A stretch of 35,438 nucleotides of DNA from Sphingomonadales bacterium (GTDB taxonomy: Bacteria; Pseudomonadota; Alphaproteobacteria; Sphingomonadales; JAKSBY01): NCBI GenBank assembly GCA_022360855.1, contig JAKSBY010000123.1, positions 1 to 35,438 of the forward strand. The letters are read 5' to 3'. The translations under genes were made by a program, and so were the position numbers. Below the pieces are notes generated by a model. It had not been told where the DNA came from. It saw nothing but the letters and a program-made list of their open reading frames with translations, and ran no database searches. Below, one piece after another: positions 13,892-30,833 of the stretch (the stretch's first letter is position 1; every line of letters starts with the position of its first letter).

Positions 13892-16147
13892 ATGTCCGAC
13901 ATAGACGCGAAGAGCGACGTCGACCTGACAAATTGTGACACCGAGCCCATTCACATTTCGGGCGCCGTCCAGCCACACGCTTACTTCTGTGCATTTCTTC
14001 CGGATACGCACCGCATTTGCGCGGTCAGCGAAAATCTCGCCGGCGTGGTTGGCGCGTCCCCCGGAGACCTCATCGGGCGTCCGGCCACGGCAATCATGGT
14101 CCCGGCTGCTGCCGAAAGCGTGGCGGCGGCATTGGGACGGCAGGGCGATGCCACGTCATTCGAAGCCAAGCTCGGAGACGGCGAGGACTACTGGGCCCAT
14201 TCCTATTGGACCGACGATGTCCTTGCGATTGACCTCGAGCCGCTTGGTTCCGGAGCAGCGACCGATACCGCGGTGCGCAGGGTCACCGCGGAGATATCCA
14301 GACTGCGGCTGAGCGACGACATCGAGGAGCTCATCGGCGCCTTTGCCGATGCGGCGCAAAGCGTCCTCGGTTTCGATCGCACCATGGTCTACCGGTTCGA
14401 CGGCGCGTTCAACGGCACTGTCGTCGCGGAACGTTCGTCGGATCATGCGCCAGGCTCGTTTTTGGGATTGACCTTCCCCCATTCCGACATACCGGCGCCG
14501 GCCCGCGCGCTCTTCATCCGAAACCGCGTGCGGTCCATCCGCCGCGCCGACTACGAGGTGGCGGAGATCGTCCCGGCACTCAACCCCTTGACCGGCGCGG
14601 CCTTTGATCTCTCGGATTCGACGATCCGAAGCGTCTCGCCGATCCATATCGAGTATCTCCGGAATATCGACGTCAAGGCCAGCTTCTCGATCTCCCTGAT
14701 CGTCGACAACCAGTTGTGGGGCCTTATCGCGTGCCACCATTTCCAATCGGAGCGATACGTACCGCCGGCGGTCCGGGCGTCGTGCATCCTGATGTGCGAG
14801 GCGTTTTCGGTGCGGCTTTCGGAGATAAATGCCAAGCGGCGCGCGGCGCGTCTGACCGGCAAGCTGCGCCGGATCAACGAGCTCCAGGACAGGGACATCG
14901 CCGATAAGACCCTCGATCAAACCGCTTTCCTCGCGGCAGCCGGGACGGAAGTCCTGAGCATCCTGGACGCCGACGGCGTCGCCATCCAAATGGCGGACTT
15001 CAGCACGAATCTCGGCCTATTGCCGTCGGACTCGCGCATCGAGCAGGTTCGCTCCGCGGCCAGGGCCGCGCTCAAAACGGAGCCGCGCGCGGTTCTGGCG
15101 ACTGACACTATTCAATCGCTCGATCTGGACCCTGCGGAGGACTGCGCCGGCATTCTGTTTTTCGCGCTTCCCGGAGGGCAGGGCGACATTCTCGCCGTGC
15201 GCAGGGAAGAGCCGCAGCCGATCAGCTGGGCCGGCGACCCGGACAAGAAGGTATTCGCCGATCCCGAAACCAAGCGGCTGCACCCGCGCCGGTCGTTTGA
15301 GCTGTTCCGGGAGCTGCGCCGCGGCCGCTCGGCGCCGTGGCCGGCGGAAACCGCCGATATCGTGCCCGATCTCGCCAACATGATCTACAAGATCCTCGTG
15401 CGCAAGGCGTTCGAGAAAAAGCTCGAGAATCTGGTGGAAGCCCTGACCGAATCGAATACCGAGCTTGAGCGTTTCGCCCACGTCGCGTCGCACGACCTGC
15501 GCGAGCCACTGCGCATGATTGCGGGCTTCAATAAGCTGATCGCCGATCGCTGCGGCGAAAGCCTGAACGATGACGGACAGGAATATGTGCGGCTCACCGT
15601 GGACGCCGCGACCCGCATGCAGCAGCTCATCGACGACCTGCTCGCCTATGCGCGGCTCGGCCAGGAGGGCGAACGGGTCGGGGTGGTCGACGTCGACAAG
15701 ATCATGAGCGATGTTCTGGAAAACATCGGCGAAGCCATCGCAGACAGCCGCGCCGAAGTCACCTATGGCGCGCTCCCGCGCGTTGTCGGAAATGACATCC
15801 GGCTGACGCGGCTCCTCCAGAATCTGGTCGGCAACGGGATCAAGTATCAGCCGCCGGACCGCGACCCGAAGGTCCATGTCAGCGCCGAGCGCGACGGTGC
15901 CGACTGGGTGTTTTCCGTGAGAGATAACGGAATGGGCATTGCCGAGGAGTACCAGGCGCAGATATTCGAGCCGTTCAAGCGCCTGCATGGCAAGCAGGAA
16001 TTCAGCGGCACCGGGATCGGCCTGGCGATCTGCCGGAAAATCGTCGACGGGTATGGCGGCCGCCTCTGGGTCGCGTCCTCCGTGCCGGGGGAGGGCAGCG
16101 TGTTCAAGTTCACGATCCCGGTGCGGGACGAGGCCGACCTGGCGTAA
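13892..16147 (+). CDS. bphP: Bacteriophytochrome histidine kinase (PAS-GAF-PHY-HisKA-HATPase)
   Basis: N-terminal LTNCDTEPIHISGAVQPHA with Cys in the biliverdin-attachment context; GLTFPHSDIPAPARALFIRN; PRRSF PHY tongue; FAHVASHDLREPLRMIAGF H-box; GTGIGLAICRKIV G-box. Confidence 0.95.
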   Translation: MSDIDAKSDVDLTNCDTEPIHISGAVQPHAYFCAFLPDTHRICAVSENLAGVVGASPGDLIGRPATAIMVPAAAESVAAALGRQGDATSFEAKLGDGEDYWAHSYWTDDVLAIDLEPLGSGAATDTAVRRVTAEISRLRLSDDIEELIGAFADAAQSVLGFDRTMVYRFDGAFNGTVVAERSSDHAPGSFLGLTFPHSDIPAPARALFIRNRVRSIRRADYEVAEIVPALNPLTGAAFDLSDSTIRSVSPIHIEYLRNIDVKASFSISLIVDNQLWGLIACHHFQSERYVPPAVRASCILMCEAFSVRLSEINAKRRAARLTGKLRRINELQDRDIADKTLDQTAFLAAAGTEVLSILDADGVAIQMADFSTNLGLLPSDSRIEQVRSAARAALKTEPRAVLATDTIQSLDLDPAEDCAGILFFALPGGQGDILAVRREEPQPISWAGDPDKKVFADPETKRLHPRRSFELFRELRRGRSAPWPAETADIVPDLANMIYKILVRKAFEKKLENLVEALTESNTELERFAHVASHDLREPLRMIAGFNKLIADRCGESLNDDGQEYVRLTVDAATRMQQLIDDLLAYARLGQEGERVGVVDVDKIMSDVLENIGEAIADSRAEVTYGALPRVVGNDIRLTRLLQNLVGNGIKYQPPDRDPKVHVSAERDGADWVFSVRDNGMGIAEEYQAQIFEPFKRLHGKQEFSGTGIGLAICRKIVDGYGGRLWVASSVPGEGSVFKFTIPVRDEADLA

Positions 16148-16811
16148 GCGGCTCGTGGCCGGAAACCGCATGCGCGACCGCTAAGGAAAGCTCGATATTG
16201 AGCCGAAAGGCGAAGGCCGCCTCGTTTAGGAGTGCGGCGTGTGCGCCGACTTCGCGTCCGGCGCGGTCGAAGGCCCGGCGGTAGCGGATCTTGAAGGCCT
16301 CCCGGTCCGCAATGTCGGGGAAGTCGTAGAAGGCAAGCTCGTCCGCGGTCAGGCCCGGGGAGCGCGCCAGCACGCGGCTGAGGACCTGCCCGCCGTTGAG
16401 GTCTCCGAGATAGCGCACATAGGCATGGGCGATCAGGCCGACGCCATCGTCTGCGGCAAGCCGGGCGATACGGGCCGCATAACGTTCGCCCTCGGGCAGG
16501 TGTGCAAGCGAGCGCCGCCAGTCCCGGCCGGCCAGCGCCGCGAGATCCGATTCCAGCGCCGGCGTCCGGTAGACCGTCGGCTCCGCAATGCACCGCACGC
16601 CGGACGCGGCGCGATGCCGCTCGAGCCCGGCCTCCAGGGCGCGATAGGCGGGCAGCAGATTGGCGATCAGGAGCGCATGGCCGGCGCGCTCGGCCTCGCC
16701 CCGCAAGACCCGCCGGACATAGCCGGTGCGTTCGGCCTCGGCATGCAGCGCGTGCGTGTGCGCTCGCAACGCGTCGGCCAGTCCGGTCGCTGGCTCGCTG
16801 GCCATCTCCAT
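16110..16811 (-). CDS. bphO: Heme oxygenase (biliverdin-producing), BphO-like
   Basis: LADALRAHTHALHAEAERTGYVRRVLRGEAERAGHALLIANLLPAYRALE...HAYVRYLGDLNGGQVLSRVL (YxRYLGDLxGGQ heme oxygenase motif); next to bphP. Confidence 0.92.
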   Translation of the reverse strand: MEMASEPATGLADALRAHTHALHAEAERTGYVRRVLRGEAERAGHALLIANLLPAYRALEAGLERHRAASGVRCIAEPTVYRTPALESDLAALAGRDWRRSLAHLPEGERYAARIARLAADDGVGLIAHAYVRYLGDLNGGQVLSRVLARSPGLTADELAFYDFPDIADREAFKIRYRRAFDRAGREVGAHAALLNEAAFAFRLNIELSLAVAHAVSGHEPLTPGRPRPAPGS

Positions 16812-17031: not shown

Positions 17032-17107
<76 letters not shown>

Positions 17108-17340
17108 CCCAAGCCCTTGCAGACGCTGCGCTTTTTCTGATCGGGCGGGATCTAGGCATCCGGGCAAGCACCGAATAAGCACAGCATAATGACTTCGGTT
17201 GGCAAAGTACTGTGCGTCCCTGTTTTTCTGTGCCATTCATACTGTATCGAAACTTCCAGCTGAGATTTAGAGCATATTGTCCGAGATGCAAAGTACCGGC
17301 TCTCGGATCTGCTGTAATGGATATCGCCTGGCGAGAGGAA

Positions 17341-17586
17341 TCAGCGCTTGAGCGCCCAAGTTCCACGAGGTGTAGCGGATGTCGGTGCCAATCTTCCCTG
17401 TTTTCTAAGCTCGAAAGCGGCCCAACGCATATCGTACTGCCAAGTGTAGAGGAATTTGTCCGACGACCTTATTTCGTGCTCGTACTCCTCCCAGATTTTC
17501 TTTGCTAGGTATAGTATTGTGGCTTCACCGCCCGCATCCTCAAGCGCTTTGTACAGCCACACCATCATGTCCAATCGGCTCGCCAA
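17341..17586 (-). CDS. Small winged-helix protein, Mrr N-terminal-domain-like
   Basis: 81 aa: LYKALEDAGGEATILYLAKKIWEEYE...YTWQYDMRWAAFELRKQGRLAPTSATPRGTWALKR, a wHTH pattern similar to Mrr_N domains, judged by eye. Confidence 0.6.
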   Translation of the reverse strand: MASRLDMMVWLYKALEDAGGEATILYLAKKIWEEYEHEIRSSDKFLYTWQYDMRWAAFELRKQGRLAPTSATPRGTWALKR

Positions 17587-17781
17587 TCAAACCTCCTGTC
17601 AAAGGCCAACAACTTCGTCCAGAATAGCATCGTTGCGTCGAAGAGGATTCACTTCGTCTCTCAAATGGCCAGCGCGGCTTGAGGGGTGCCAATCTCCTCT
17701 TGGTTGAATCGGCTATGTACGAATGGACTGCCACAATATATGGTGTCGTGAGTTGGGATGAACACAAAATAAAGAGAAAAT

Positions 17782-18903
17782 ATGGCAGTCTGGGGAAAAC
17801 ATTACGAAATTGAGATACCTAAACAGCCTCGTCCTAGGCGCCGCACCTCGAAACCGCTGTACGCTACCGAACTAGGCGCAATGTACTGCGGTAAGTCTGA
17901 GAAGGTGTTGAAGAGCAGACGGCTTAAGGAGCTTCACGGCCAGGCGCAGCTGATTTTCACCTCGCCCCCGTTCCCGCTGAACACCAAGAAGCGGTACGGC
18001 AACCTTCAGGGTGACGAATACGTGCGATGGTTCGCGCGATTTGCTCCTCTTCTTCGCGAATTTCTTGTCAACGACGGTTCCATCGTCATTGAGATCGGGA
18101 ACGCATGGGAGCCTGGTCGCCCCGTTATGTCTACGACGGTTCTCAGGGCCCTTCTGGCATTCCTCGAGAGGGGTGGCTTGCACCTTTGCCAGGAATTCGT
18201 CTGGTATAACTCGGCACGGCTGCCTTCTCCGGTTGAGTGGGTCAATAAAGAACGCATTCGAGTAAAAGATGCATTCACACGCATCTGGTGGATGTCCCCT
18301 ACAGAGCGTCCAAAGGCCGACAATCGAAAGGTGTTGAAGGAATACAGTCCCAGCATGAAACGGCTAATCGAGACGGGAAAATACAATGCTGGTGCCCGGC
18401 CATCTGAGCATCATATTGGGGCGGAGAGCTTTAAGACAAACAACAATGGGGCCATTCCACCCAACGTTGTTGGTGCGGACGAAATGCATTCATTGAACGA
18501 CCTGATCACTCCGAGTTCTGTCCTAAAGGCTGCCAACACTGGCTCGCGCGACACCTATCGAGACTTCTGCAACGAACGCGGTGCCTCTATCCACCCTGCC
18601 CGTATGCCGCGAGCTCTTGTGGAGTTTTTCCTAAAGTTCCTGACAGAAGAGGGCGACCTCGTACTCGATCCATTCGGAGGTAGCAATACCACGGGCGCGA
18701 CTGCGGAGCAGATGGGTCGCCGTTGGGTTTCAGTAGAGGCGGAATGGGAATATGCCGTCCACTCTATCGGCCGTTTCGATCCTGAGGCGCTTGTTGGCTG
18801 TGATCGTGAATTATCGATCTTTGAGCTGGTTGAGACTAGGGACAAGGATAGAACGTTGTTTGATGAAGACTGGTCCGACGCGTCTATTTCAACCGCTTCG
18901 TAA
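17782..18903 (+). CDS. DNA methyltransferase (beta-class N4-cytosine/N6-adenine type)
   Basis: Catalytic motif IV TSPPFPL precedes SAM motif I LDPFGGSNTTGATAEQMGRRWVSVEAE, the beta-class order. Confidence 0.9.
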   Translation: MAVWGKHYEIEIPKQPRPRRRTSKPLYATELGAMYCGKSEKVLKSRRLKELHGQAQLIFTSPPFPLNTKKRYGNLQGDEYVRWFARFAPLLREFLVNDGSIVIEIGNAWEPGRPVMSTTVLRALLAFLERGGLHLCQEFVWYNSARLPSPVEWVNKERIRVKDAFTRIWWMSPTERPKADNRKVLKEYSPSMKRLIETGKYNAGARPSEHHIGAESFKTNNNGAIPPNVVGADEMHSLNDLITPSSVLKAANTGSRDTYRDFCNERGASIHPARMPRALVEFFLKFLTEEGDLVLDPFGGSNTTGATAEQMGRRWVSVEAEWEYAVHSIGRFDPEALVGCDRELSIFELVETRDKDRTLFDEDWSDASISTAS

Positions 18904-19588
18904 TTGCTTCAATTTGGTCCGCAAATCGATCTTTGATCGTTGCGTAGAAGTCTTGGAGTTGATTTAGGTTTTCTCTCGATATCGCTTCTCCTGACCCGGA
19001 AACACCGCGGCGGATCACACTAGTTTCATTTTCGTCCATCCAAGCAATTGCGTTCTCAATGGCCTTTTCGGTGGCGATCATTCTATCGCGTAGGTGTTGC
19101 GGGTCCGATGAGGTCAACTGAAGGAATGACGCGGCGCCCAGCCACATTCGCGGCTCGTCCTTATATTTGCTGTGTTTCCTAAATACGCTGCTTCTGTACA
19201 AAGGTGCCACCGCATCGTAGACTGCCTGAGGTGACCGGCGAGATTCACCTCCGGTTTTCCCTTTCTGGCTAAGTCTCTCCGCTTCGGTGCGGCCGAGATT
19301 CGTCAGGCTGTAGGTATTTTGCCGTACCTTCTCAAGCCAACCACGTCGGATCGGGTTTTCCTTCTTTGTGGTCCCCATTATCTCCATCATGACCCGTTTG
19401 TGGTCCGGATACTGCGCCTCATATCCGCGGCACCCGAATCGATTCGGGTTGCGCTTCCAGGTCGCCACCGTCAAATCCCACTCCGAAAACTCGGCTTTGC
19501 CTTCAGCATCCAAATCGACAGCACCGAATAGGATTTCCTGGGCCGCCGTAAGGGCCTTTGAGCTCTCATATCCCATTTCCACCCCCAT
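18884..19588 (-). CDS. Hypothetical protein, likely DNA-binding (winged-helix-like N-terminal half)
   Basis: 234 aa; NPIRRGWLEKVRQNTYSLTNLGRTEAERL resembles a wHTH. Overlaps the GHKL ATPase end by ~23 nt (translational coupling) and the MTase 3' end by 20 nt (convergent). Confidence 0.7.
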   Translation of the reverse strand: MGVEMGYESSKALTAAQEILFGAVDLDAEGKAEFSEWDLTVATWKRNPNRFGCRGYEAQYPDHKRVMMEIMGTTKKENPIRRGWLEKVRQNTYSLTNLGRTEAERLSQKGKTGGESRRSPQAVYDAVAPLYRSSVFRKHSKYKDEPRMWLGAASFLQLTSSDPQHLRDRMIATEKAIENAIAWMDENETSVIRRGVSGSGEAISRENLNQLQDFYATIKDRFADQIEAITKRLK

Positions 19589-22007
19589 CTCGACTAAGCA
19601 ACTGGTCAGTCATCTCCCATGCCGCATCGATGAAATCGGCGCACTCCATCTCAGCGTCAGCCGCGTACTGCATGAAGGTGAATTCGGTCACGGCATCTCC
19701 CGCAATCTGTTGCCGCACGTACAATCTCTTCAGAATGTCGAAGCACTTCAGAGCGACAAAGTGCATGAACGTCTTGTTGCCGACCTTACCCAGACCACTT
19801 GAGCCTCCGGCGCCCCTTCTGACGCGCATCGCCTCCTTGCTGTTGGGGTTGATCCATACTATGCCGGAGAACAGCGGGTCCTCGATAATCGTAGGGTATT
19901 CTGCGCCACCAGGAATTGTGCGTCGTTCAGGCGGGTACTCCTCCATCCCTGGTGCATGTTCGCCGCAGAGGAGAATCTCAGGCACGTCGCTTCCGGTATC
20001 GCCTTTGCCCTCCTTTGGAGGGACCCTCTCGGTACTTACTGGGATCGAAAAGTCACGATAGGCCGACGCGTCAGCGCCGTACCAGATCCGGACGTCGGCG
20101 TTGCCCTCCATGTGTCTGACGGTAAGCCTGCCATGTCGTCCGATGGCGCCGAATCTCGAGTCCAACACCTCGCCGTCTATGAGGGCGTCGTCAAGGGGCC
20201 CCTCTGGTGTCTGAAAAGTGATATTCAATCTCAGACGCTGACCCTGCAACAAAGGCTCAGCGGGAATCTCCAATTCAACGTCTGTCGCCGCAATCGTCCA
20301 AAACTCACGTCGATTGGATTGCAAGCTACCGTCCTCGGTCTCCAGCCAAATTTCGCCAAGACCAGATGTGTGCGCGGTGAGCATTCCATCGGGGTCAAGA
20401 GTGAACATCCCCTCCGGCTCAGACCTCAAGATTAGGCCGGAGGCACGGACGGGTCTCTTGCTCCCGTCCTCGTGATGCTCTAGACAACGATGCAGAAGGG
20501 GAATTTTTGTCCCCGCTATAAGCGTAACGTCTCGTAGATTGGGTTCCAGGATAATCTCATGGATTTCGGTTCCGTATTCGATCGGTTCGCGTGGTTCCTT
20601 TCGGCCACTACCTGAAGCACCGGAGCCTGCACCATCTGAACCGTCCCCGGAGGCTGCACCCGAAGAGTCGGGGTCAAGATACTTGCGCATCAGTTCCCTA
20701 ATATTGCTAAGGGCACTGCGGGCGCGTTCTCGGTCTCTTGGTGCCGTGTTCTCGGCCATCGCGCGGTGTAGGTCTTCGGCAAGCTGCTTGACGTGCTCAG
20801 CCGCCCACTCCCTCAAGGCTCGTACCAGAGCAGAGTCTGACAGGTGTTGCCGGGTGGCGCCGTCCTGGTGTTCATCCGTCAACGAAGGACAACGGAGCTC
20901 TCCGTATATAAAGCTGGCCGCACTCAAACCGTGCAATTCCTGAGGAGTCCAGGTAGCAACGTTATTACGTTGGTTCCAAATCCGTATGACATTCTTGGCG
21001 CGAGTCTTCGGTGAAATTTGGAGCTGGCTTTGGCTCGTGCTTAGCCTTAGGTACCCTGTCTTGCCCGGTTCCTCGAAGACCTTTATTGACTCGCTGGTCC
21101 CGGGGTCAGGCAACAAGTCCGGTATCTTAAACTCTCGAGGTGTCTCGAACCCGGGAAAGGGTGGGATCTCGGTAGGTCTTACCGGTCCAGGGCCCGCAAT
21201 CTCTCCATCCCGGACCACCCAGACTTGGCAGGTCTCAATGGTAAGTGCTGTCTGTCCGTGGCTGGCGATGATCTCGGCGAGCCCGGTTCCGGCTAGTGTT
21301 CGCAGTTTGGGCTTCCGACGGCCGATCCAATCTTGGACCTGCTCCAGATAAGCGATGGTGAACGCTTGCCGTTCGTGGAATACAGATTTTGCGGCTTCTG
21401 GCAGAAGGTTGATCTGCATACCGACCATAGAAAGTGCCTCGTTCAGGCGACTTGTAGGGTCGGACTCTTCGATGTTGTCGAGCCTGACGCCATGATGATT
21501 CGCAAAACCTGGTTTGTATCGTTCCTTCGGTTGATCGTTTATAAAGCCTTTCCTGGTTCGCTTGCCCTCGTAGCAGGACTCCAAAAAGGCGGTTCTAGTA
21601 GCGCCGCGCACCATGAATGCCTTACCCCCGTTACCGTGCCCGGCCTCGATGTCATCTGCGCGATCGGTTTGACCAGCTGTCGGGTCGGACCAATTGGTCC
21701 AGCCCTTAAAATTCTCAGCGGGCGCGCCTGCGAAATCCAATACGGCGAGGGTGCGCTGAGCCGTATCGGCGACAACTACTATCTGACGATCTATCTCGTC
21801 CTTAATACCGAGCCGAGAGTATTGGTCCTTGGAGTTTTTGACGAGTTCGGGCAATCCGTCTCGCACGCTACGGAAACGGCCGGTGAGCTGATTCAACGTC
21901 TCGACCGGATCTATAGGGATTTCTTCAGGGAGGATGAATTCCCGCATACCTTGGACCTGTGGCTTAGGTTCTAAAGACATATTCGCCTTAAAGTTTAAAT
22001 TTTGCAT
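19566..22007 (-). CDS. GHKL (MORC/MutL-like) ATPase with C-terminal beta-rich, Ig-like domains
   Basis: GHKL N-box LPELVKNSKDQY (ExxxNSxD), VLDFAGAP (DxxG) and AGHGNGGKAFM (GxGxGG); Gly/Ser linker DSSGAASGDGSDGAGSGASGSG; Ig-like repeats. Start uncertain: 21980, 22007 or 22031. Confidence 0.8.
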   Translation of the reverse strand: MQNLNFKANMSLEPKPQVQGMREFILPEEIPIDPVETLNQLTGRFRSVRDGLPELVKNSKDQYSRLGIKDEIDRQIVVVADTAQRTLAVLDFAGAPAENFKGWTNWSDPTAGQTDRADDIEAGHGNGGKAFMVRGATRTAFLESCYEGKRTRKGFINDQPKERYKPGFANHHGVRLDNIEESDPTSRLNEALSMVGMQINLLPEAAKSVFHERQAFTIAYLEQVQDWIGRRKPKLRTLAGTGLAEIIASHGQTALTIETCQVWVVRDGEIAGPGPVRPTEIPPFPGFETPREFKIPDLLPDPGTSESIKVFEEPGKTGYLRLSTSQSQLQISPKTRAKNVIRIWNQRNNVATWTPQELHGLSAASFIYGELRCPSLTDEHQDGATRQHLSDSALVRALREWAAEHVKQLAEDLHRAMAENTAPRDRERARSALSNIRELMRKYLDPDSSGAASGDGSDGAGSGASGSGRKEPREPIEYGTEIHEIILEPNLRDVTLIAGTKIPLLHRCLEHHEDGSKRPVRASGLILRSEPEGMFTLDPDGMLTAHTSGLGEIWLETEDGSLQSNRREFWTIAATDVELEIPAEPLLQGQRLRLNITFQTPEGPLDDALIDGEVLDSRFGAIGRHGRLTVRHMEGNADVRIWYGADASAYRDFSIPVSTERVPPKEGKGDTGSDVPEILLCGEHAPGMEEYPPERRTIPGGAEYPTIIEDPLFSGIVWINPNSKEAMRVRRGAGGSSGLGKVGNKTFMHFVALKCFDILKRLYVRQQIAGDAVTEFTFMQYAADAEMECADFIDAAWEMTDQLLSRDGGGNGI

Positions 22008-22239
22008 CTGTTTTTCCCTTTGGTGATGCAAATCGCTTTTCGACTTCCGAAATGGACTGTTTGAGCGCTCTAATTATCTTTTTCACTTCAGAATCGTCCC
22101 ACTCATAGAGCTGCCGGTTTGAGAGGTTCCCGATGCGGCCAATAGCATCAAGCGCTTTATTTGTGCGACCTTCAGCTAATTCTCTGAATTTATTATGTTT
22201 TTCAGATCGTCTGATGTTGTTTTCTGACTTATCAGCCAT
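21988..22239 (-). CDS. Small conserved-looking protein of unknown function (83 aa)
   Basis: RTNKALDAIGRIGNLSNRQLYEWDDSEVKKIIRALKQSISEVEKRFASPKG; directly upstream of and in an operon with the GHKL ATPase. Confidence 0.7.
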   Translation of the reverse strand: MADKSENNIRRSEKHNKFRELAEGRTNKALDAIGRIGNLSNRQLYEWDDSEVKKIIRALKQSISEVEKRFASPKGKTDAKFKL

Positions 22240-22544
22240 GGAGGCTCTCCAGTTTTATCTCTGATATGAGACATTTTTGACGATTTAGAAAAATTAAATG
22301 TGGTTTGAGTATCATATTTGTCAATATATTTGACCAAATACTTTTGCATTTATGAATTTTATGGGTATCTATTTCGGCCATAAACTACGGTTTTCGGCGA
22401 CATATTAATTGCTTGAAGTGGCAAGAAATTTGGGTTTTGCCAAATGAAACTTTCTCGAAATGCCGACAAGGACGACCTTGTGGCTTCTTCGAGCCATTTA
22501 CTGAGTGCACTGAGCCGCGCTAGAATGCATTCGCGGTCGCCGGT

Positions 22545-22704
22545 GGGGCGATCGTGGGGCGTTGGAACCCCGACAGAAGCACCCAGCCCGTATGGGCCGG
22601 GTGGCGTGAAATGTTCAGGGCCGCCCGGTTCGCCGGACGGCCTAAAATAGCGCGCGCGCCAGCTTCTGTCGCGTTCCAAACACCCGGCTCGCCAGGGTCG
22701 CCCC
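22545..22704. other. Highly structured intergenic segment, candidate ncRNA or cis element
   Basis: Outer stem 22545-22557/22692-22704; middle stems 22562-22568/22673-22679 and 22571-22580/22662-22671; two inner hairpins 22581-22602 and 22619-22642. Confidence 0.6.
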
Positions 22705-22729
22705 CGTTTGGTTGAAGCAGAGGGGTGAC

Positions 22730-23173
22730 ATGGCACGGCCTAGCTCAAGACATTCGATTGCGGTTTTTCTGATTTCGGCACTTTTGACGTCCGTTGTCTT
22801 AACTTCGGCACAGGCGCAGAACACCGAGCGTACGGAGGAAGTTGCTGCGACCCTTGGACAGCTGCTGTCCGATTTGATGACCAAGACCTACATGTGTCAG
22901 CGTCAGTTGGGTGGGCTTGGCCACTATCAGTTGGCCATGTCATGGGCCGAGAGGACTATGAGGCAAGTCGGGCTCAGCACGCTGGAGGCGGCGGAGCTGG
23001 TGAACACACACCACGAGAGGCTGGAAAAGGAACGTCCCGATCTTGAAATGGCCAAAGCTGCGGAGGAGAGCGAGATGGACGTGTCAGTCGAGCTCTTTCA
23101 GGTCTGCAGCGAAGACGTCAACGAACTCTACCGTCTCATAAACCTTCATCTTGCGAGGCTTGGGCTGAGATAG
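22730..23173 (+). CDS. Exported hypothetical protein
   Basis: MARPSSRHSIAVFLISALLTSVVLTSAQAQ signal peptide; ATG at 22730 follows an AGGGG ribosome-binding site; mature part helical with two Cys. Confidence 0.7.
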   Translation: MARPSSRHSIAVFLISALLTSVVLTSAQAQNTERTEEVAATLGQLLSDLMTKTYMCQRQLGGLGHYQLAMSWAERTMRQVGLSTLEAAELVNTHHERLEKERPDLEMAKAAEESEMDVSVELFQVCSEDVNELYRLINLHLARLGLR

Positions 23174-23302
23174 GATCGAGCCGATTGCTCGCCAAGGACC
23201 AGAGCTTGAAATGGCAAGGGAAGGGGCCCGGTCTGACGCCGGACCCCGCCCCGTCGGCACGGATCATAGGGAAGGAGGTACCCGGGTCCGCGCGGTGACT
23301 GT

Positions 23303-23803
23303 TCAGTCCATGTAGGCGCCCAGCATGCGCGCGCCTCTCTGGGCGGCCGCCTCGCGCTCCTGCATCTCGACGACCTTGGCGTACGCCCGCCTGCCGATCG
23401 GGTCCCTGGCCGCCCTGGCGTGTGCGGTCCCGGCATCGCAGCCGTCGCGCTCAATGATGCGCTCCACCACCGAGTCGTAGAGGTCCTCGGCGCGCTTCCG
23501 GACCGCCCGGCAGTCGGCGCCCGCCGAGGCGACCGCCTTCTCGATGATCTCCAAGCTGTGCATAGCGTCCATGCTTGTCGCTCCCTTATGTACTTCGCTT
23601 TGGCCGCCCTGCCGGCGCACTCCCAGCTCCTCCCTCAGCCGGGCGATCTCGGCCTCCAGCTCGAATATGCGGCGCAGGTCGTCGTCCGCCGCGTTGAACC
23701 CGGCGAGCTCCTCGTCGAGCCGGTCGCGCCGGCGCTCAAGCTGCTCCACCCTGGCCCTAGTCCGCTCCGAGGCCTGCCTGCCCGTGATCTTGGCGTAAGG
23801 CAC
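23303..23803 (-). CDS. Hypothetical protein with N-terminal coiled coil
   Basis: RTRARVEQLERRRDRLDEELAGF...LEAEIARLREEL; GTG start 3 nt after the upstream stop. Confidence 0.65.
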   Translation of the reverse strand: MPYAKITGRQASERTRARVEQLERRRDRLDEELAGFNAADDDLRRIFELEAEIARLREELGVRRQGGQSEVHKGATSMDAMHSLEIIEKAVASAGADCRAVRKRAEDLYDSVVERIIERDGCDAGTAHARAARDPIGRRAYAKVVEMQEREAAAQRGARMLGAYMD

Positions 23804-23806
23804 GGG

Positions 23807-24364
23807 TCAGTCCTCCTCCTCGGGGATGGCGGGGACGACCCGGCGCGTCAGCTCCTCAAGTGTGTAGCGCTTGGATACCGGCGTGCGGGCCACCTCGGCC
23901 TGCTCGCACCAGGTCGGCGCCGACATCCAGCCGGACCACTTCGCGTGCGGCCTGGCCATGCGAGCCGGGCGCCCGTCGTCGGGGATCCCGGCGCGCCTCA
24001 GCGCGGCCAACAGGTCGAGGCATGCCAGACGGTACGCGACGGCGGCCTCCTCGAGACCGGCGAGCGCGCTGTCTACGGACCTGGCTGCCGCCACGTAGGA
24101 CTCCACCGCCTTCGAGGCCTCGGCCCTTGCGGTCCGACGACGCCCGCGCTCTTGTGTTGCTGCTTCGGCCGCCGCGCGATCCTCCGCTACGCGGAGCGCC
24201 TCGCCGGCGTCGTCGGCCTCCTCGGCGGCGTCACGCCTGCGGGCGCGGAGCTTGCGGATCTCTCTATCTGGCTTTCCGTCGGTGATCGCCTCTGCGATCC
24301 CGGCGTCCAGCCTCTCGTACTCGGCCTCGGCGTCCGAGCGCCTCTTCATCAGGCTGTCGAGCAT
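23807..24364 (-). CDS. Hypothetical coiled-coil protein
   Basis: MLDSLMKRRSDAEAEYERLDAGIAEAITDGKPDREIRKLRARRRDAAEEADDAGEALRVAEDRAAAEAATQ; operon with 23303-23803. Confidence 0.65.
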   Translation of the reverse strand: MLDSLMKRRSDAEAEYERLDAGIAEAITDGKPDREIRKLRARRRDAAEEADDAGEALRVAEDRAAAEAATQERGRRRTARAEASKAVESYVAAARSVDSALAGLEEAAVAYRLACLDLLAALRRAGIPDDGRPARMARPHAKWSGWMSAPTWCEQAEVARTPVSKRYTLEELTRRVVPAIPEEED

Positions 24365-24512
24365 TCCCGTCGGTTCCTATTCGGGTGGGTGTGTGCGCGT
24401 ACGTTGCACAGATCTTGCCTCGGGCGAAGCCAGCATTCACTTTCGGAGGACAAATGGTAGTCACGGAATCTTGCGCTGACAGTACGGGGAATCGAAACCG
24501 TTAGTCCACGGG

Positions 24513-24741
24513 GAGCACCGGGAGCACCATTGAGCACTCGATAACAGGAGCACGCATGAGTGCTACATTTCCGGCTCAAGCGGCTGAAATATCAGCACTT
24601 TTTCATAAGGCCAATCTAATAAAATCTCTTGAGTCGACAATAAGCCATGCAAACTCGAGAACTCAACGCGCACAATATACACGATATCCATGTAGTTGAA
24701 TAATAACTAAATCATTGATTTTAGGAGATTTTTTATCCACA
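24513..24741. other. Candidate replication origin (iterons + AT-rich region + DnaA box)
   Basis: Four direct GAGCAC copies (24513, 24522, 24532, 24548), an AT-rich tract ~24590-24735, and DnaA-box consensus TTATCCACA at 24733-24741. Confidence 0.45.
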
Positions 24742-24768
24742 ATATGTGGTATCGAGAGATCGCGCCGT

Positions 24769-24870
24769 CCCGGTGGGGTCCAAACCACCGGGCTCCGGCG
24801 CTACTCACTTCTTGGCATGAGGTGCGTGGACCAGATCATCTCGAAGGGCCGGGGGTCCAAACTCCGGCCC
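24769..24870. other. Twin hairpins with a shared loop sequence
   Basis: 24769-24792 CCCGGTGG-GGTCCAAA-CCACCGGG; 24846-24870 GGGCCGGGG-GTCCAAA-CTCCGGCCC. Confidence 0.6.
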
Positions 24871-24899
24871 GCCCTCCCTCGAGCGTGGAGACTATATAA

Positions 24900-25445
24900 A
24901 TGGCGACCATCCCGAAGAAAAGGCGGAGTTCGATCGCGCAAAGAAAAGCTGATATGCGATCGTCGCTATGGCCGGACATCGACGAGTCCATTTTGTGGGA
25001 TCGCAAGAGGTCAGATGGCTGGCTGAGCATCCCCCGAGCAATGCCGCTATTGCTGCAAATTATGGACAGTCTTTCGAAGGGTAAGCCCGTTTCCGCAACA
25101 TACTTGGATTTGTGGTGCCGGACCTACGATGACTCCTTCGTTATCGCAAACAAGCAACGCGAAATGGCCTACTACTCCGGTTTCACCGGCGAGCGAGCGG
25201 TGCGCACTTGGATGACCCGTATGCGCATACTGCAGGACCTTGGCTTCATCGATATCTTGGAGGGTCCGAATGGGCCAATCAGCTATGTGTTGATTTTCAA
25301 CCCCTACTTTGTGGTTCGTGATCATGACGAATCTGGACGAGTCAATGCTGCGCTAATCAATTCGCTAACCCAGCGTATGATTGAAATCGGCGCCCATGAC
25401 TTGGACAAGCCGCCACGGGAACGAAAAAAGAAAGGCACAAAATAG
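24900..25445 (+). CDS. Hypothetical winged-helix-like protein, possible replication/regulatory protein
   Basis: 181 aa; EMAYYSGFTGERAVRTWMTRMRILQDLGFIDILEGPNGPISYVLIFNPYFVV resembles a wHTH; lies just downstream of the origin-like region. Confidence 0.65.
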   Translation: MATIPKKRRSSIAQRKADMRSSLWPDIDESILWDRKRSDGWLSIPRAMPLLLQIMDSLSKGKPVSATYLDLWCRTYDDSFVIANKQREMAYYSGFTGERAVRTWMTRMRILQDLGFIDILEGPNGPISYVLIFNPYFVVRDHDESGRVNAALINSLTQRMIEIGAHDLDKPPRERKKKGTK

Positions 25446-25450
25446 TGCCG

Positions 25451-25708
25451 CTAAGGACTATCTTCCGGACTCTCAAGCCGTACCGCTAGCAGCGACTCCA
25501 CGAACCCCCGCATCTCAGGCGTCGATAGGCAGCTGAGGACGGTATCGCGGTCCTCCTCGCTCGCAAGAGGCGTGCTGATGCCGCGCCCGTGCTCGTCGCG
25601 AAGTGACCCCTCCCCGTGGCCGGCGGCGCAGCGGACCCGGACCCCATTCAGCACGTAACAGCCGTCCCGGCCCACATACTGGACCACGATGCTAGGGTAG
25701 GGGGCCAT
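25451..25708 (-). CDS. Small hypothetical protein
   Basis: Probable ATG at 25708 (MAPYPSIVVQYVGRDGCYVLNGVRVRC...) overlapping the end of the TerS-like gene. Confidence 0.55.
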   Translation of the reverse strand: MAPYPSIVVQYVGRDGCYVLNGVRVRCAAGHGEGSLRDEHGRGISTPLASEEDRDTVLSCLSTPEMRGFVESLLAVRLESPEDSP

Positions 25709-26210
25709 CCTCGGCCTCCGTGTCCTCGACGTCATCTTCCTCGTCGGCAGGGCCGATCCGCCGCCCATCGACGTCGTAGTAGACGACGGCCATGCCCTCA
25801 CGAGCGACGTGCTCGAACCGGCCCGCCACTGCAGTCCGCTGGTCGACCCGCTGGACCTCGTCCCGCATCGTCTTGTCCATCAGCTTCATAAGCACCCTGG
25901 CGTCGACGTGGCGGGTCTCGAAGCGCATCACGGGCTCGAAATCGTCGTCGAGCAGCGGGCGCCCCGTCTCGGGGTCGAGCTCCGGCACCCACTCCCCGAT
26001 GCCCAGGGCGCAGGCCGTCTCGACGACCCGCTCCCTCAGGCCCTGCCGCGCCGCCTGCAGGGCCGCGTCCCAGAGGTCGGCGAACTCGGGGTCCTCGCGC
26101 CAGCCGTAGGCGGTCATCCTGTTGATGCCGAGGAGACGGGCCGCCTGGGAGACGTTTCCGGTCTCGGCCAGCAGGCCGATGAACTCGTCCCTGACTGAGG
26201 CTGGAAGCAT
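25692..26210 (-). CDS. Small-terminase (TerS)-like HTH protein
   Basis: MLPASVRDEFIGLLAETGNVSQAARLLGINRMTAYGWREDPEFADLWDAALQAA, the typical N-terminal HTH of TerS-like proteins. Confidence 0.7.
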   Translation of the reverse strand: MLPASVRDEFIGLLAETGNVSQAARLLGINRMTAYGWREDPEFADLWDAALQAARQGLRERVVETACALGIGEWVPELDPETGRPLLDDDFEPVMRFETRHVDARVLMKLMDKTMRDEVQRVDQRTAVAGRFEHVAREGMAVVYYDVDGRRIGPADEEDDVEDTEAEDGPLP

Positions 26211-26476
26211 GGATTCGGTTCCCTCATCTGTGCCCGGTTCGGTGTTCGGCGATAGGCGGCGGGTGCCATGTCCTTGATCGGGCTGCGACTATCTCGGCCA
26301 CTCCCGCCGATCAACGGTCAGATGCTCTGGCCGGAGATTGGCGCCGATATCTCAGGCGCCGCTGCGTCAACCGTCACGGAGCAGTTTGCCAAATCGGTAG
26401 GGCGGTTGAATGCCAGCGTTGATTGTTTTGATCGTTCTTCGCTGTTTCCAGGGGCCGAAGGATCGAGGGCGGTCGA

Positions 26477-26599
26477 GGCGGTCAGGGCAATATCCGACAA
26501 CTAACGCACAAAGGTCCGCAATAAGTACCGACACCGCAGGAACTCGGCGGAGCGCTCACAAAAGGCATTGCGATTATTGCCCTGACCGCCCTGACCGCC
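26477..26599. repeat. Inverted/tandem GGCGGTCAGG repeat cluster
   Basis: GGCGGTCAGGGCAATA (26477-26492) is the exact reverse complement of TATTGCCCTGACCGCC (26575-26590), followed by another CTGACCGCC (26591-26599). Confidence 0.6.
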
Positions 26600-26600
26600 T

Positions 26601-29021
26601 CTATTCTTCCAGGTCCGCGAAATCGCGGATGGCGTCCATGTGGATCTTCTTCGAGAAGTCCTCCTTCAAGTCCAGGCCGTTCAGGTAGGCGACCCTCCTG
26701 CCGTCCTCCCTGGGCCTGGACTGCTTGAACCGCGCGCCTGCGCTGTTCAGGTCCTTGATGAAGTGCTCCTTACGGCCGCTGAAGTGCAGGCCTTCGTCCA
26801 GAGTCCATGAGATGAACGCCTCCCAGAACCTGTCCTTACGCACGCGGTGGCCTGGGCCCTTGACGACTTCCGTGTCCAGAAACCACTTCACCGGGCTTGT
26901 AAGCTTGTGCATCTGCATCACCTCGGCCTTGCAGCTGCGAGGCTGCACGAAGTGTCCCCGACTTTTCAGACGGTCGAGTCCGTCGAGTGCCCAGTTCAGT
27001 ATGCCCGGCAGCTCTTCGCGCAATTTGTCGGTCAGTCCTTTGTCCTCGCGACCGAGGAAGCTCTGCCGGGTGACGATCACGATCATCCTCGATCCCAGCG
27101 CGTCTGACGTGTCCTTGAGCTGCAGTACCTCGTTGGACACGATCAAAAAGCGGGTGTTCAGCTTGCCTTCCCAGTTTTCGATTTTCTTGCGTTCGACGGA
27201 TACAGAGTCTTCTCCTGAAATGGTCAGAAGAGTTTCTACGAGACCGGTGGAGTTTATGTTCTTGCCATGGCGCATGTCCGAAATTACCGCCAGCTGCTTG
27301 CCAATCAGTGGCTGGAGGCCGAACCTGCCTGCCAGATTCCTGGCGATAGGTGAGGTGTAGTTGCCTTCCCCGATGAGGCTTTGCAAAACACGAGTGTACA
27401 CGCCCTTCCCAGCGCGGGGAGGGCCGACGAACAGTACGATCTTCTGCAGGGAGGTGTCCTGGGTCAGAAAGTAGCCGGTCGCCTCCTGCAGCGTCTCGAT
27501 GCAGTCGGGCTCGTTCGGGAAGATTTCCTCAAGAAACCTCATCCACCGTTTCGGCAACGGCGCGTCGGGATTGTAGTGCACGGGCGTTCCGTTCACCGAG
27601 AAGAACCGTTCGTCGGCCGCGAGCAGCCTCCTCGTCGGCAAGTGCAGCAGCCCGTTAGCGCATACCATCAGCTGATCGGCCCGCGGGTCCTCGGGCGCCT
27701 GATTCAACCAGCTCGGCGCGTGGTCGGGACCCTGGCGCAGTGACCTGGCCGCCTCTTCTATGTTCGCTATCTTGTGCTTCCCTGCAACGAACCGCTTTAC
27801 CTCCGGTTCGGCCTTGCTGCTGTCGGTATAGGGCCGGCCGTCAGACCACTTCCAGCACCAGGACGTGAACCGCTCGTGAGGGACCGCCACGTAGTGGTTG
27901 AGCTGCCGATCGTACCTGAACCACTCGGAGTTTGAGCGCAGCAGCGCCTTGCCTTTAAGCATCTCCAACGCCATGGTCATGGGCGCATCGCTCGCCAGCG
28001 GCGTCGCGGAGCCGTAATCGGTCGCCTGTCCGACGATGTCGGATACGGCGTCGGCTCTCCCAGCGTCGAAATCGTCTTCTGCGGCCGTCCTCGGGATAAC
28101 ATCGTCCCGGCCCGCATCCAGCAGCAGTCTGTGCAGGGAGCGGTATGTGATGAGCGGGCGGTCGCCCGTCGGGCGGAGACTGTCCCAGCGGGCGCCGATT
28201 ATGTCGCCGTGACCGGCGTACTCGGGGTCGCCCGTCGAGCAGTCTATGAACTCCTGCCTGGCCGACCCGTTGGAGGCATGGTGGCAGGCACACATCACCT
28301 CAAACCATCTGTCGTGTTCCCTGAAGTCCTCAGGGTCGAGCGCCTCCAGCATCGCCGCAATCTCTTCCGCGTCGTACTCGCCGCCGCCGTTTGAAAGAGT
28401 CACAGCCGTCTTAGCAATCGCGTCCAGTAGGGCACCAGGCACCGGAGGTGCGCACCATAGGTCGCTCTCATTTGCCGCCCAGCGGTAGGCTCTGCCCGTC
28501 TCGGGGTGGGTAGAGCCGGGGGCGACGACCTGTCTCCCGACCGACTTGAACTCGATGCCAGGGAATTCGGGCAGGCTGTTCCTGACCGATGCGCCGGGCG
28601 GAATCGAGAGGTAGTAGTGTTCGCCGCCGCTGCCCGTCTCAACCCTCGGCCATTCGGTAGGATCCAGTCCCAGCGACAACACCAATTCATCAAAGGGTTC
28701 GACTTCTTCCCAGCCCTCGCCGAAGTTGCGCGGGTCGACGTCGATCACCAGGTCGGTGGGGCGCAGGCGCACGCCGACATTTCCTCCCCGTTCCATGTGG
28801 CCGATCTGGTCCTCGTTGCGGTAGGGCCGGCGTGTCCAGTCTTTGTCTCGCGGGATCTTCTGGCCGTCGCGCAACGGTATGAGCTGGTAGCCTGCCTCGA
28901 TCAGTGGCCCAAGCGTCGGCGTCCTGGTTCCCGACCCGATATTGAGGGGCGCCGAGGCACCGCTCTCGCTAGGCTCGTTCGCTGGCTTATCTCCGCGTGT
29001 CGTGGTGCTATCATCCGTCAT
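26601..29021 (-). CDS. Phage/satellite-type primase-helicase (prim-pol + D5_N + SF3 helicase)
   Basis: Prim-pol: PLIEAGYQLIPLRDGQKIPRDKDW...GNVGVRLRPTDLVIDVDPRN...GSGGEHYYLSIP; SF3 Walker A: IVLFVGPPRAGKGVYTRVLQSLIGEGNY. ATG at 29021 favoured over 29096. Confidence 0.92.
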   Translation of the reverse strand: MTDDSTTTRGDKPANEPSESGASAPLNIGSGTRTPTLGPLIEAGYQLIPLRDGQKIPRDKDWTRRPYRNEDQIGHMERGGNVGVRLRPTDLVIDVDPRNFGEGWEEVEPFDELVLSLGLDPTEWPRVETGSGGEHYYLSIPPGASVRNSLPEFPGIEFKSVGRQVVAPGSTHPETGRAYRWAANESDLWCAPPVPGALLDAIAKTAVTLSNGGGEYDAEEIAAMLEALDPEDFREHDRWFEVMCACHHASNGSARQEFIDCSTGDPEYAGHGDIIGARWDSLRPTGDRPLITYRSLHRLLLDAGRDDVIPRTAAEDDFDAGRADAVSDIVGQATDYGSATPLASDAPMTMALEMLKGKALLRSNSEWFRYDRQLNHYVAVPHERFTSWCWKWSDGRPYTDSSKAEPEVKRFVAGKHKIANIEEAARSLRQGPDHAPSWLNQAPEDPRADQLMVCANGLLHLPTRRLLAADERFFSVNGTPVHYNPDAPLPKRWMRFLEEIFPNEPDCIETLQEATGYFLTQDTSLQKIVLFVGPPRAGKGVYTRVLQSLIGEGNYTSPIARNLAGRFGLQPLIGKQLAVISDMRHGKNINSTGLVETLLTISGEDSVSVERKKIENWEGKLNTRFLIVSNEVLQLKDTSDALGSRMIVIVTRQSFLGREDKGLTDKLREELPGILNWALDGLDRLKSRGHFVQPRSCKAEVMQMHKLTSPVKWFLDTEVVKGPGHRVRKDRFWEAFISWTLDEGLHFSGRKEHFIKDLNSAGARFKQSRPREDGRRVAYLNGLDLKEDFSKKIHMDAIRDFADLEE

Positions 29022-29135
29022 GTGATTGTCCTTTCCAGCAGATTGGTTGATCCGTCCTAAAAAACTTGGCCCGTCGGCCCGCGCCGGCGGGCCCATTCTT
29101 TCTTCGCCTGGTCACTGTGTGGCGGTCTCGGTCCG

Positions 29136-29339
29136 TCATCGCGGTCCTTCCCCAATCACGTAGGCGTCGAGCTCGTCGCGGCGGTAGCGCACGGCCCTGC
29201 CTGCCTTGTGGTATGGGGGACCCTCGCCCCTGGACCTGAAGGTCCTGAGCGAGCCGGGGCTGAGGCGCAGGTATTCCGCGGCCTCGACGGTGTCGAGCCA
29301 GGGTCTCTTGCAGAATTCTGGGGATGTGTCGCTGGCCAT
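29136..29339 (-). CDS. AlpA/excisionase-like HTH regulator
   Basis: LDTVEAAEYLRLSPGSLRTFRSRGEGPPYHKAGRAVRYRRDELDAYV; classic HTH_17 pattern. Listed ORF starts at 29393; internal ATG at 29339 also plausible. Confidence 0.85.
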   Translation of the reverse strand: MASDTSPEFCKRPWLDTVEAAEYLRLSPGSLRTFRSRGEGPPYHKAGRAVRYRRDELDAYVIGEGPR

Positions 29340-29505
29340 ATTGTCCTCCTGTCCAGACGCGTCAGCCGAGTTGCCGATCCCCTCAGGACGCACTAAGCCA
29401 TTGAGGGAAAGCGGCTTTCTTTCGACTGTCTGGATGGGAGTCGTTGGTCTCGCCTACGACTTCGTCGATTATGCCGATTCGCGCCAATCAGGGTCAACCA
29501 ACGTT

Positions 29506-30633
29506 TCAGGCCTGCCGTTCAGTCCTCTCAAAAACGTAGTCCTCAAGCGCCTGCGCGTGGGGCCTCAGCGCCTCGACGAGGTGCTCTGGGTGGACGTAAC
29601 CGCCGCTCGCCCCCGGCAGCTTCTGCCCGAGGAGGAGCGCGCTCTCGGCGTAGGGCACCCCCGCAGCGATCATCATCGTCCTAGCATGGTGTCGCAGGGC
29701 GTGGGGCGATGGCATGCTCTTCTGCTTGGGCTCGCTGATGTGCCCTGTGGCGCTGGTGACTGAGGGCCAAAGCCACTCGCTCTTGAGCAGCAGATCGTCC
29801 CTCAAGCGCTCGGTCAACATTTGGGTGAGGCGGTTACCCGCTGGGAATACTAGCTGTCCGCCCGTCTTCATATGGGTGAAGGTCAGTGTGCGCCCCTCAG
29901 TGCTAAAGTCCGCCCGCCGCACCGACAGGATGGAGCTGCGCCGGGCGCCTGTCAGCAGTGTGGCGCGCTGCAGGTCCCGCATCAGGGGCGAAAGCTTGGC
30001 GGTCTCCTTCCACCAGCCGGCGATGTCCAGCGGCTCGACCTGCCTTGGCTTCGGCACGGGTATCCTGACGGCACACACAGGGTTGGACGTCACCGTCTCG
30101 TCAATCCGCATCGCCGTGTTGATGAGCGTCCTCAGCACGCGCATGGTGCTGGCGGCCGTCGTCCTGCCGCTGCGCCGTTCCAAGGTGTAGAACAGCTCCC
30201 GTACCTCGGTCCGAGTGATGTCTGCCACGGCCCGGCGCCTCAGTCCCCTGAGGTACTTGTTCAAGACGTAGCGGTAGTCCTCCTCTGTGGCTTTGCGCAG
30301 GTGTCTGTCGGCGAGGTGCGCCTCGAAGGCCTCAGCGAGCGTGATACCCGAGCCCCTGGGTGCGGCGGTCGGGTCGATGCCCGACTGAATTTCCGACATC
30401 AGCGCCTTCGCGCCGCGCCGTGCCTCCGCCAGCCTGATGCGGTCGACCCGGTCGATCTTGACCCTGACCGTCCTGACGTGCCTGCCGTTCCGGCGCACAT
30501 CGCCCTGGACCGCGTAGGTCTTGGTGGTTTTGTGGCAGATGACCATCAGCCCCTTGACCTCGGCGTCCCTGTATATCCCCGAGCCGTAGGGCAGGGCCCT
30601 GATTCTCGCCTCGGTCAGCTTCATGACCGCCAT
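29506..30633 (-). CDS. Tyrosine recombinase/integrase
   Basis: N-terminal arm-like domain (LTEARIRALPYGSGIYRDAEVKGLMVICHKTTKTYAVQ), TGARRSSILSVRRADF, SPHALRHHARTMMIAAGVP and GGYVHPEHLVEALR; next to attR. Listed ORF starts at 30693. Confidence 0.93.
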   Translation of the reverse strand: MAVMKLTEARIRALPYGSGIYRDAEVKGLMVICHKTTKTYAVQGDVRRNGRHVRTVRVKIDRVDRIRLAEARRGAKALMSEIQSGIDPTAAPRGSGITLAEAFEAHLADRHLRKATEEDYRYVLNKYLRGLRRRAVADITRTEVRELFYTLERRSGRTTAASTMRVLRTLINTAMRIDETVTSNPVCAVRIPVPKPRQVEPLDIAGWWKETAKLSPLMRDLQRATLLTGARRSSILSVRRADFSTEGRTLTFTHMKTGGQLVFPAGNRLTQMLTERLRDDLLLKSEWLWPSVTSATGHISEPKQKSMPSPHALRHHARTMMIAAGVPYAESALLLGQKLPGASGGYVHPEHLVEALRPHAQALEDYVFERTERQA

Positions 30634-30788
30634 CGCCTTGTCCTCCGCAAACACAGAACCAGGCACCGGACCGTGCTCGCTTTTGGTCAGCACCGGTCAG
30701 ATGTGCGAAGGACATTGTGTCGTCTAAGCTATTGAAAGTACGCCATTAATCAGCACAGGCCGGCTCTGGCCGGCGCTGCCTGCCGCGC

Positions 30789-30833
30789 CTCTTAATCAGC
30801 GGGTCCGGGGTTCGAATCCCCGACGGCCCTCCA
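30789..30833 (+). repeat. attR: 45-bp duplication of the tRNA-Lys 3' end
   Basis: Identical to 17063-17107; no 5' half of a tRNA is present here. Confidence 0.95.

Follow-up and report, generated by a model that had tools for sequence, protein, structure and literature searches.

A conserved GHKL ATPase module with two small partner proteins and a PvuII-type methyltransferase as a candidate restriction-modification-like defence system

The prokaryotic MORC and paraMORC ATPases were predicted in 2008, from their gene neighbourhoods, to act in restriction-modification (R-M) (PMC2292703). Iyer, Abhiman and Aravind proposed in 2008 that the GHKL plus S5 ATPases encoded in R-M operons form DNA loops that join recognition sites to cleavage sites, and a superfamily 2 (SF2) helicase was found in the operon for about 70% of the MORCs (PMC2292703). 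VcSduA, a GHKL-Shedu protein, protects against phage and shows that anti-phage action can depend on a GHKL domain as an essential part (PMC12137116). The role of the ATPase in MORC/paraMORC R-M is hard to test where helicases and nucleases share the operon. Here we describe a reduced case, consisting of a GHKL ATPase, two small partners (p83 and p234) and a DNA methyltransferase (MTase), on a 35,438-nucleotide contig of a Sphingomonadales bacterium (GCA_022360855.1, JAKSBY010000123.1; the whole stretch is referred to as the window). We give an about even chance to the prediction that this module is an R-M-like defence system where an ATPase complex of p83, a GHKL-S5 clamp and p234 takes the place of a recognisable endonuclease. 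The reduced module would let one ask directly whether a GHKL clamp restricts DNA without a nuclease.

The conserved unit in the window consists of p83, the GHKL ATPase and p234 on the minus strand, convergent with the PvuII-type MTase on the plus strand. The five open reading frames (ORFs) of the region, described in an earlier sequence-only reading as tightly packed, with the p234 gene overlapping the ATPase and MTase genes, were confirmed with their coordinates, strands and MTase motifs:

17341..17586, minus strand: ORF of 81 amino acids (aa) with a TTG start, possibly a winged helix-turn-helix (wHTH) protein, outside the conserved module
17782..18903, plus strand: MTase, 373 aa, a beta-class amino-MTase resembling M.PvuII, with motif IV TSPPF and motif I DPFGGSNTTG
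18884..19588, minus strand: p234, 234 aa, N-terminal winged helix and all-helical C-terminal domain, the conserved partner of the ATPase
19566..22007, minus strand: ATPase with GHKL and S5, Ig-like (Big_2) domains and a C-terminal region without family assignment
21988..22239, minus strand: p83, 83 aa, a small protein with a conserved GNLSN motif, just 5' of GHKL ATPases

The p83 and ATPase genes overlap by 20 nt, the ATPase and p234 genes by 23 nt, and the convergent p234 and MTase genes by 20 nt. Read from TTG 22031, the ATPase ORF encodes 821 aa (19566-22031), and from ATG 22007 it encodes 813 aa; the ATG, which is also used by the Rhodobacteraceae homologue, is the likely start. The G+C content was 46-57% across the module versus about 64% in the flanks. 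A scan for promoters and terminators gave no more sites than in shuffled sequence. Searches of Pfam, NCBIfam and PADLOC yielded no family match for the ATPase, p234 or p83, and these three proteins lie outside the families of the libraries searched. The 81-aa ORF was rejected as a member of the system; its match to Mrr_N (E = 0.1) was far below the Pfam cut-off, and homologues were absent from the related loci and plasmids. The other four genes form a real co-inherited unit, beyond chance, because the same set is found together in distantly related taxa, and the co-inheritance first suggested by their overlaps was thus borne out.

Adjacent ATPase/p234 pairs were found in eight places besides the window, in Rhizobiales, Rhodobacteraceae, Armatimonadetes, Phycisphaerales, a Pacearchaeota metagenome-assembled genome (MAG) and a distant planctomycete. 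The nine loci, including the window, are mostly from MAGs. The plasmid search gave the Ensifer locus, with the ATPase (46% identity), p234 (54%) and p83 (42%) in the same order as in the window. Six more loci came from a scan of a genome collection (Methylobacterium, Rhodobacteraceae, Armatimonadetes, Pacearchaeota and two Phycisphaerales); all except the Rhodobacteraceae locus were MAG contigs, and gene order was read from ORFs. The Rhodobacteraceae locus stops at a contig edge, and we infer that it is joined to a second contig (L020), on which p234 (72%) is followed by an MTase (68%) in convergent orientation. The distant planctomycete pair showed identities of about 20-25% for the ATPase and about 21-28% for p234; in this locus (L021:7344-10896) the pair has no DNA MTase and is followed by a nucleotidyltransferase (MNT-like) gene. 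On the Pacearchaeota contig (L006:2874-7569), gyrB- and gyrA-like genes were recognised near the module by reading the sequence. On the Ensifer plasmid (L002:725-4906), a McrBC-like R-M block lies by the GHKL trio and contains a PvuII-type MTase with a ribbon-helix-helix-like N-terminal extension, together with a McrB-like AAA_5 ATPase and a protein that may be of the PD-(D/E)xK type (weak hits).

A DNA MTase is the next gene past p234, in convergent orientation, at seven of the nine loci (window included), which span four phyla and include the archaeal MAG. From the PF01555 counts of the respective genomes, the probability that this adjacency arose by chance in the five deepest lineages was put at about 4e-15, or at 4e-10 when ten-fold clustering is allowed for, as an order of magnitude only. 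The sequence-only reading had proposed this neighbourhood comparison and held that its idea would fall if homologues of the ATPase and p234 occurred apart from the MTase. They mostly co-occur with it; the linkage stood at the seven loci and did not at the Ensifer and distant planctomycete loci. An orphan MTase that shields the element from host restriction might also have come to lie beside an unrelated GHKL system by chance. Mobile elements and plasmids do carry lone MTases, and the MTase is not always adjacent, as the two exceptions show, but the identical convergent placement past p234 in seven loci and four phyla, with MTases of different lineages, speaks against such clustering, which we regard as quite improbable.

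The MTase matched PF01555 (6e-31), PADLOC MTase_II (9e-87) and M.PvuII (1boo, 1.7e-74), to which it is 44% identical, and it has the beta-class motif order, with TSPPF and DPFGGS, of M.PvuII-type N4-cytosine MTases. Its closest plasmid relatives adjoin R.PvuII, an HNH nuclease, another restriction endonuclease (REase), or DEAD helicase and DndD-like genes; one close plasmid relative has no annotated partner. On an Aurantiacibacter plasmid (L022:3992-8951), the gene of an M.PvuII-like MTase (49%) is grouped with those of a DEAD helicase, a small protein and a DndD-like ATPase; a restriction set resembling DndFGH is here combined with methylation.

In the METHYLTRANSFERASE exchange the trees of the ATPase and p234 agreed with each other, whereas the MTase tree was discordant. 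Between Ensifer and Methylobacterium the ATPases are 86% and the p234 proteins 91% identical, while the MTases are only 41% identical and belong to different subgroups, and one has an insertion relative to the other in what is presumably the target-recognition region. In the Pacearchaeota MTase (18-28% identity) motif I precedes motif IV, whereas the other MTases follow the beta-class order, and this difference ruled it out as a member of the same MTase subfamily. The MTase was swapped at least two times with the ATPase and p234 retained, a pattern that speaks for functional coupling. As the pair was kept with some MTase while the identity of the MTase changed, methylation as such is suggested to matter to the ATPase/p234 pair.

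Structure models were built with AlphaFold2 (AF2) from six sequences. In the model of the ATPase (predicted local distance difference test, pLDDT, 74.5; predicted template modelling score, pTM, 0.50) a GHKL domain was followed by S5, an Ig-like portion rich in beta strands and finally a C-terminal region. The ATP-binding motifs of the GHKL domain are intact, as in MORCs (N-box ELVKNSKDQY, DFAGA, and GHGNGGK as G-x-GNGGK), and their key residues were invariant in an alignment of eight close homologues. With this model, Foldseek found Ig-like proteins, Hsp90s and the ATPase modules of MORC2, MORC3 and MORC4 at E values of 1e-8 to 1e-7. The TM-scores of the MORC matches were low, and the support that model and Foldseek give to an S5 domain after the GHKL domain, a further MORC feature, is therefore moderate. 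A profile search of the PDB with the ATPase gave Ig-like repeats as the sole matches. The MORC S5 signature GhXhhpXXRhl is absent; in the equivalent stretch, NVIRIWNQRNN, the glycine is replaced by N or H and the hydrophobic residue after R is not kept. Judged by this missing signature, the ATPase is not a MORC. The MutL/MORC-like character ascribed to it earlier thus held for the GHKL plus S5 resemblance found by Foldseek, but not for strict membership of the MORC family.

The features stated for paraMORC2 to paraMORC5 were also lacking. H258, the sole invariant histidine, is without the conserved ExxxH spacing of the paraMORC2 S5 domain, and the E-D-ExK motif of the paraMORC3/VcSduA-type nuclease (DUF4263) is absent, with no Pfam match in the eight ATPase homologues. 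The Pfam search showed no C-terminal or adjacent TIR (paraMORC4), and the C-terminus has no invariant histidine that could form the HxH of paraMORC5. A candidate for the MutL motif DQHA(X)2E(X)4E in the ATPase C-terminus (LQHAAHAEIECA in Ensifer) was rejected, as its spacing is off by one and its residues are not conserved. No SF2 helicase was found within the module, either in the window or at the homologous loci, and no ATPase homologue among 50,697 phage records.

Like the MORC/paraMORC R-M operons, the module has a GHKL plus S5 ATPase with a MORC fold match beside a DNA MTase on laterally mobile DNA, and its p83 is common to GHKL genes in Dcm/Vsr/REase operons. Unlike them, it is without SF2 helicase, nuclease and MORC S5 signature, it has Ig-like domains and a dedicated wHTH partner (p234), and its MTase is a PvuII-type amino-MTase, whereas theirs are mostly C5 MTases. 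VcSduA (Shedu, paraMORC3) likewise has a GHKL ATPase as its core, but it contains a DUF4263 PD-(D/E)xK nuclease, while the module has a linked MTase and neither a nuclease domain nor a Shedu match; the anti-phage activity of VcSduA has been demonstrated. The PvuII R-M system (Proteus vulgaris pPvu1) shares the MTase type, but has R.PvuII and a small HTH controller where the module has p83-GHKL-p234. In mzaABCDE and related MORC/AIPR-associated systems (PMC9523054) a MORC/MutL-type ATPase is also found near an MTase, but the module has no AIPR, PD-(D/E)xK component or PADLOC match. MutL-MutH mismatch repair shares the GHKL clamp, and MutL acts on the methylation state through a partner; MutH and the MutL C-terminal nuclease motif are absent from the module, which has Ig-like domains instead. 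Of a type II R-M system, the module has the DNA MTase, but no recognisable cognate REase, since no nuclease domain was detected in its proteins. Among the PADLOC system models only MTase_II was matched, by the MTase, and the ATPase, p234 and p83 matched none, in agreement with the earlier view that this is no named defence system. The module is distinct from Shedu, Mza and PvuII R-M. Its likeness to MORC/paraMORC-associated R-M is best read as that of a rare new version with an ATPase clamp and without a recognisable endonuclease.

The strongest new link is p83, which joins the module to GHKL operons of the R-M type. Its homologues were searched in plasmids and phages. Those on other plasmids (36-54% identity) sit just 5' of GHKL ATPases from two further sequence families, three in all with that of the module. 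The first of these two (about 620 aa) is found in Agrobacterium, Dinoroseobacter and Rhizobium, and two of its members match HATPase_c_3 at E values of about 0.001-0.003, below Pfam's cut-off. The second (619-636 aa, motifs read by eye) comes from Priestia, Planococcus, Deinococcus and Arthrobacter, where its genes lie within or beside clusters that encode Dcm, Vsr, AlwI or MutH/Sau3AI-type endonucleases; these clusters include a DUF6339 protein in three cases and a Shedu nuclease in Arthrobacter. Four p83-linked GHKL genes lie in or beside Dcm/Vsr/REase or MutH-type clusters, and one lies near an Mrr nuclease. Homologues of p83 without a GHKL neighbour occurred in Neorhizobium, in Vescimonas (by an N-6 DNA methylase), on a second R. 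leguminosarum plasmid and in a Rhizobium copy interrupted by an insertion sequence. At the Armatimonadetes locus no p83-like gene was seen, and in Phycisphaerales its position is held by two mutually similar proteins of about 210 aa.

The GNLSN motif of p83 may serve as a small sequence marker for further GHKL defence operons, including those with ATPases too divergent for Pfam. The plasmid loci in which p83 marks other GHKL operons are L036, L037, L039, L040, L041, L043 and L044. In Priestia, Planococcus and Arthrobacter the gene order is p83, GHKL (about 620 aa), a protein of about 285 aa and DUF6339, with genes of the Dcm/Vsr/REase or MutH type alongside; a literature search for DUF6339 gave nothing. 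At L036:6031-11303 and L037:5986-12213, p83-GHKL precedes a Gabija-like pair, made up of an OLD-like ATP-binding protein and a UvrD-like helicase, in what is possibly a compound defence locus.

The AF2 model of p234 showed a winged helix followed by helices (mean pLDDT 85.6), and the nearest Foldseek matches were winged-helix/MukE-like folds with E values above 0.006, none of them significant. Of the wHTH partners proposed by the sequence-only reading, p234 was retained, with a winged-helix DNA-binding fold in its model, and the Mrr_N-like 81-aa ORF was not. The cryptic nuclease suspected in p234 was discarded, as its C-terminal domain is all-helical and Foldseek gave no nuclease match. The sequence of its presumed recognition helix, PDHKRVMMEIM, hardly varies among species with differing MTases, and p234 is therefore an unlikely source of varying sequence specificity. 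With its winged helix, p234 could form with the ATPase a regulatory or signalling pair that controls the MTase or neighbouring cargo and is not itself an effector. GHKL plus wHTH pairs that regulate immune operons exist, such as CapK/CapS (PMC13373217). However, the 821-aa ATPase with S5 and Ig-like domains is MORC/Hsp90-like and not a compact HTH-STAS-GHKL kinase, the MTase is the only constant third gene, and p83 ties the module to complete R-M operons; a purely regulatory role seems improbable.

The R-M-like defence reading is favoured because of the linkage and exchange of the MTase, the REase-type genes beside its closest plasmid relatives, the presence of p83 in Dcm/Vsr/REase operons, the GHKL/MORC structural match, and the precedents of MORC/paraMORC R-M and VcSduA. 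In such a system the PvuII-type MTase would mark the DNA of element and host as self. Judged from fold and family, the GHKL protein would dimerise on ATP and close around DNA, while its partners p234 and p83 would contact the DNA or help to load the clamp. On unmarked incoming DNA the complex might stay clamped and block replication or transcription, or it might bring in a nuclease from outside the module, much as MutL recruits MutH.

These two alternatives arise because the module has no recognisable nuclease: no nuclease, helicase or TIR domain was detected in its proteins (Pfam, NCBIfam, PADLOC; PDB sequence search of the ATPase C-terminus), as the first inspection had also indicated. In the nuclease-free form, methylation would license self, whereas unmarked DNA would be silenced or entrapped by a MORC-like clamp that is driven by ATP and assisted by the winged-helix protein and the small partner. 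This is a tentative proposal that we consider rather unlikely; if true, it would be a bacterial and archaeal counterpart of eukaryotic MORC silencing. Alternatively, the GHKL clamp could activate cleavage at unmodified sites, as in MutL/MutH, by a nuclease that is either hidden in the last 135 or so residues of the ATPase or provided by the host. This C-terminal part of the ATPase is conserved and without family assignment, a protein with weak PD-(D/E)xK matches lies beside the Ensifer copy, and MutH/Sau3AI, AlwI, Vsr and other REase genes neighbour the p83-GHKL operons of Priestia, Planococcus, Arthrobacter and Deinococcus. However, the searches above gave no nuclease match in the ATPase, p234 or p83, nor any PDB match to the ATPase C-terminus, whose invariant residues include no E-D-ExK, HxH or MutL-type metal motif, and the loci have no nuclease gene in common. 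We consider a cryptic or borrowed nuclease rather unlikely.

Several observations weigh against the R-M-like defence reading as a whole. In an R-M pair of matched specificity one would not expect the effector to stay constant when the MTases are exchanged; such swaps would fit a matched pair only with an unchanged target or with an MTase that guides the complex. The distant planctomycete pair is without a neighbouring DNA MTase, and that of Ensifer lies on the opposite side, within the McrBC-like block with the AAA_5 ATPase and the weak PD-(D/E)xK protein; the MTase is therefore not obligatory in cis. The confidence of the ATPase model is only moderate, as given by its pLDDT and pTM. The family is also very rare, with one match (its own centre) per group sample of 199-386 genomes; among 393 planctomycete genomes there were two clear ATPase-family matches.

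The module is cargo on a 13.7-kb integrase/primase element (window 17063-30833) at tRNA-Lys, with the following features:

17063..17107, plus strand: attachment site copy 1, the 3' part of tRNA-Lys(CTT) (gene 17032-17107)
25692..26210, minus strand: terminase-small-subunit-like HTH protein (phrog_4044, 4e-7)
26601..29096, minus strand: Prim-Pol/D5 (P4-type) primase-helicase, from family-library matches
29506..30693, minus strand: tyrosine integrase, from family-library matches
30789..30833, plus strand: attachment site copy 2, a perfect 45-nt direct repeat of 17063-17107

The gene set of integrase, Prim-Pol/D5 primase and terminase-small-subunit-like protein would fit a phage satellite of an alphaproteobacterium, and the suggestion that defence-type cargo is carried in a satellite setting was upheld in that the module rides a satellite-like element. 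In a relative of the same order (G410) the DNA-level match to the element was confined to the integrase and primase stretches, and the module is therefore probably exchangeable cargo. Just outside the element (window 13892-16811), a bacteriophytochrome-like sensor gene was recognised beside a heme-oxygenase-like gene by reading the sequence.

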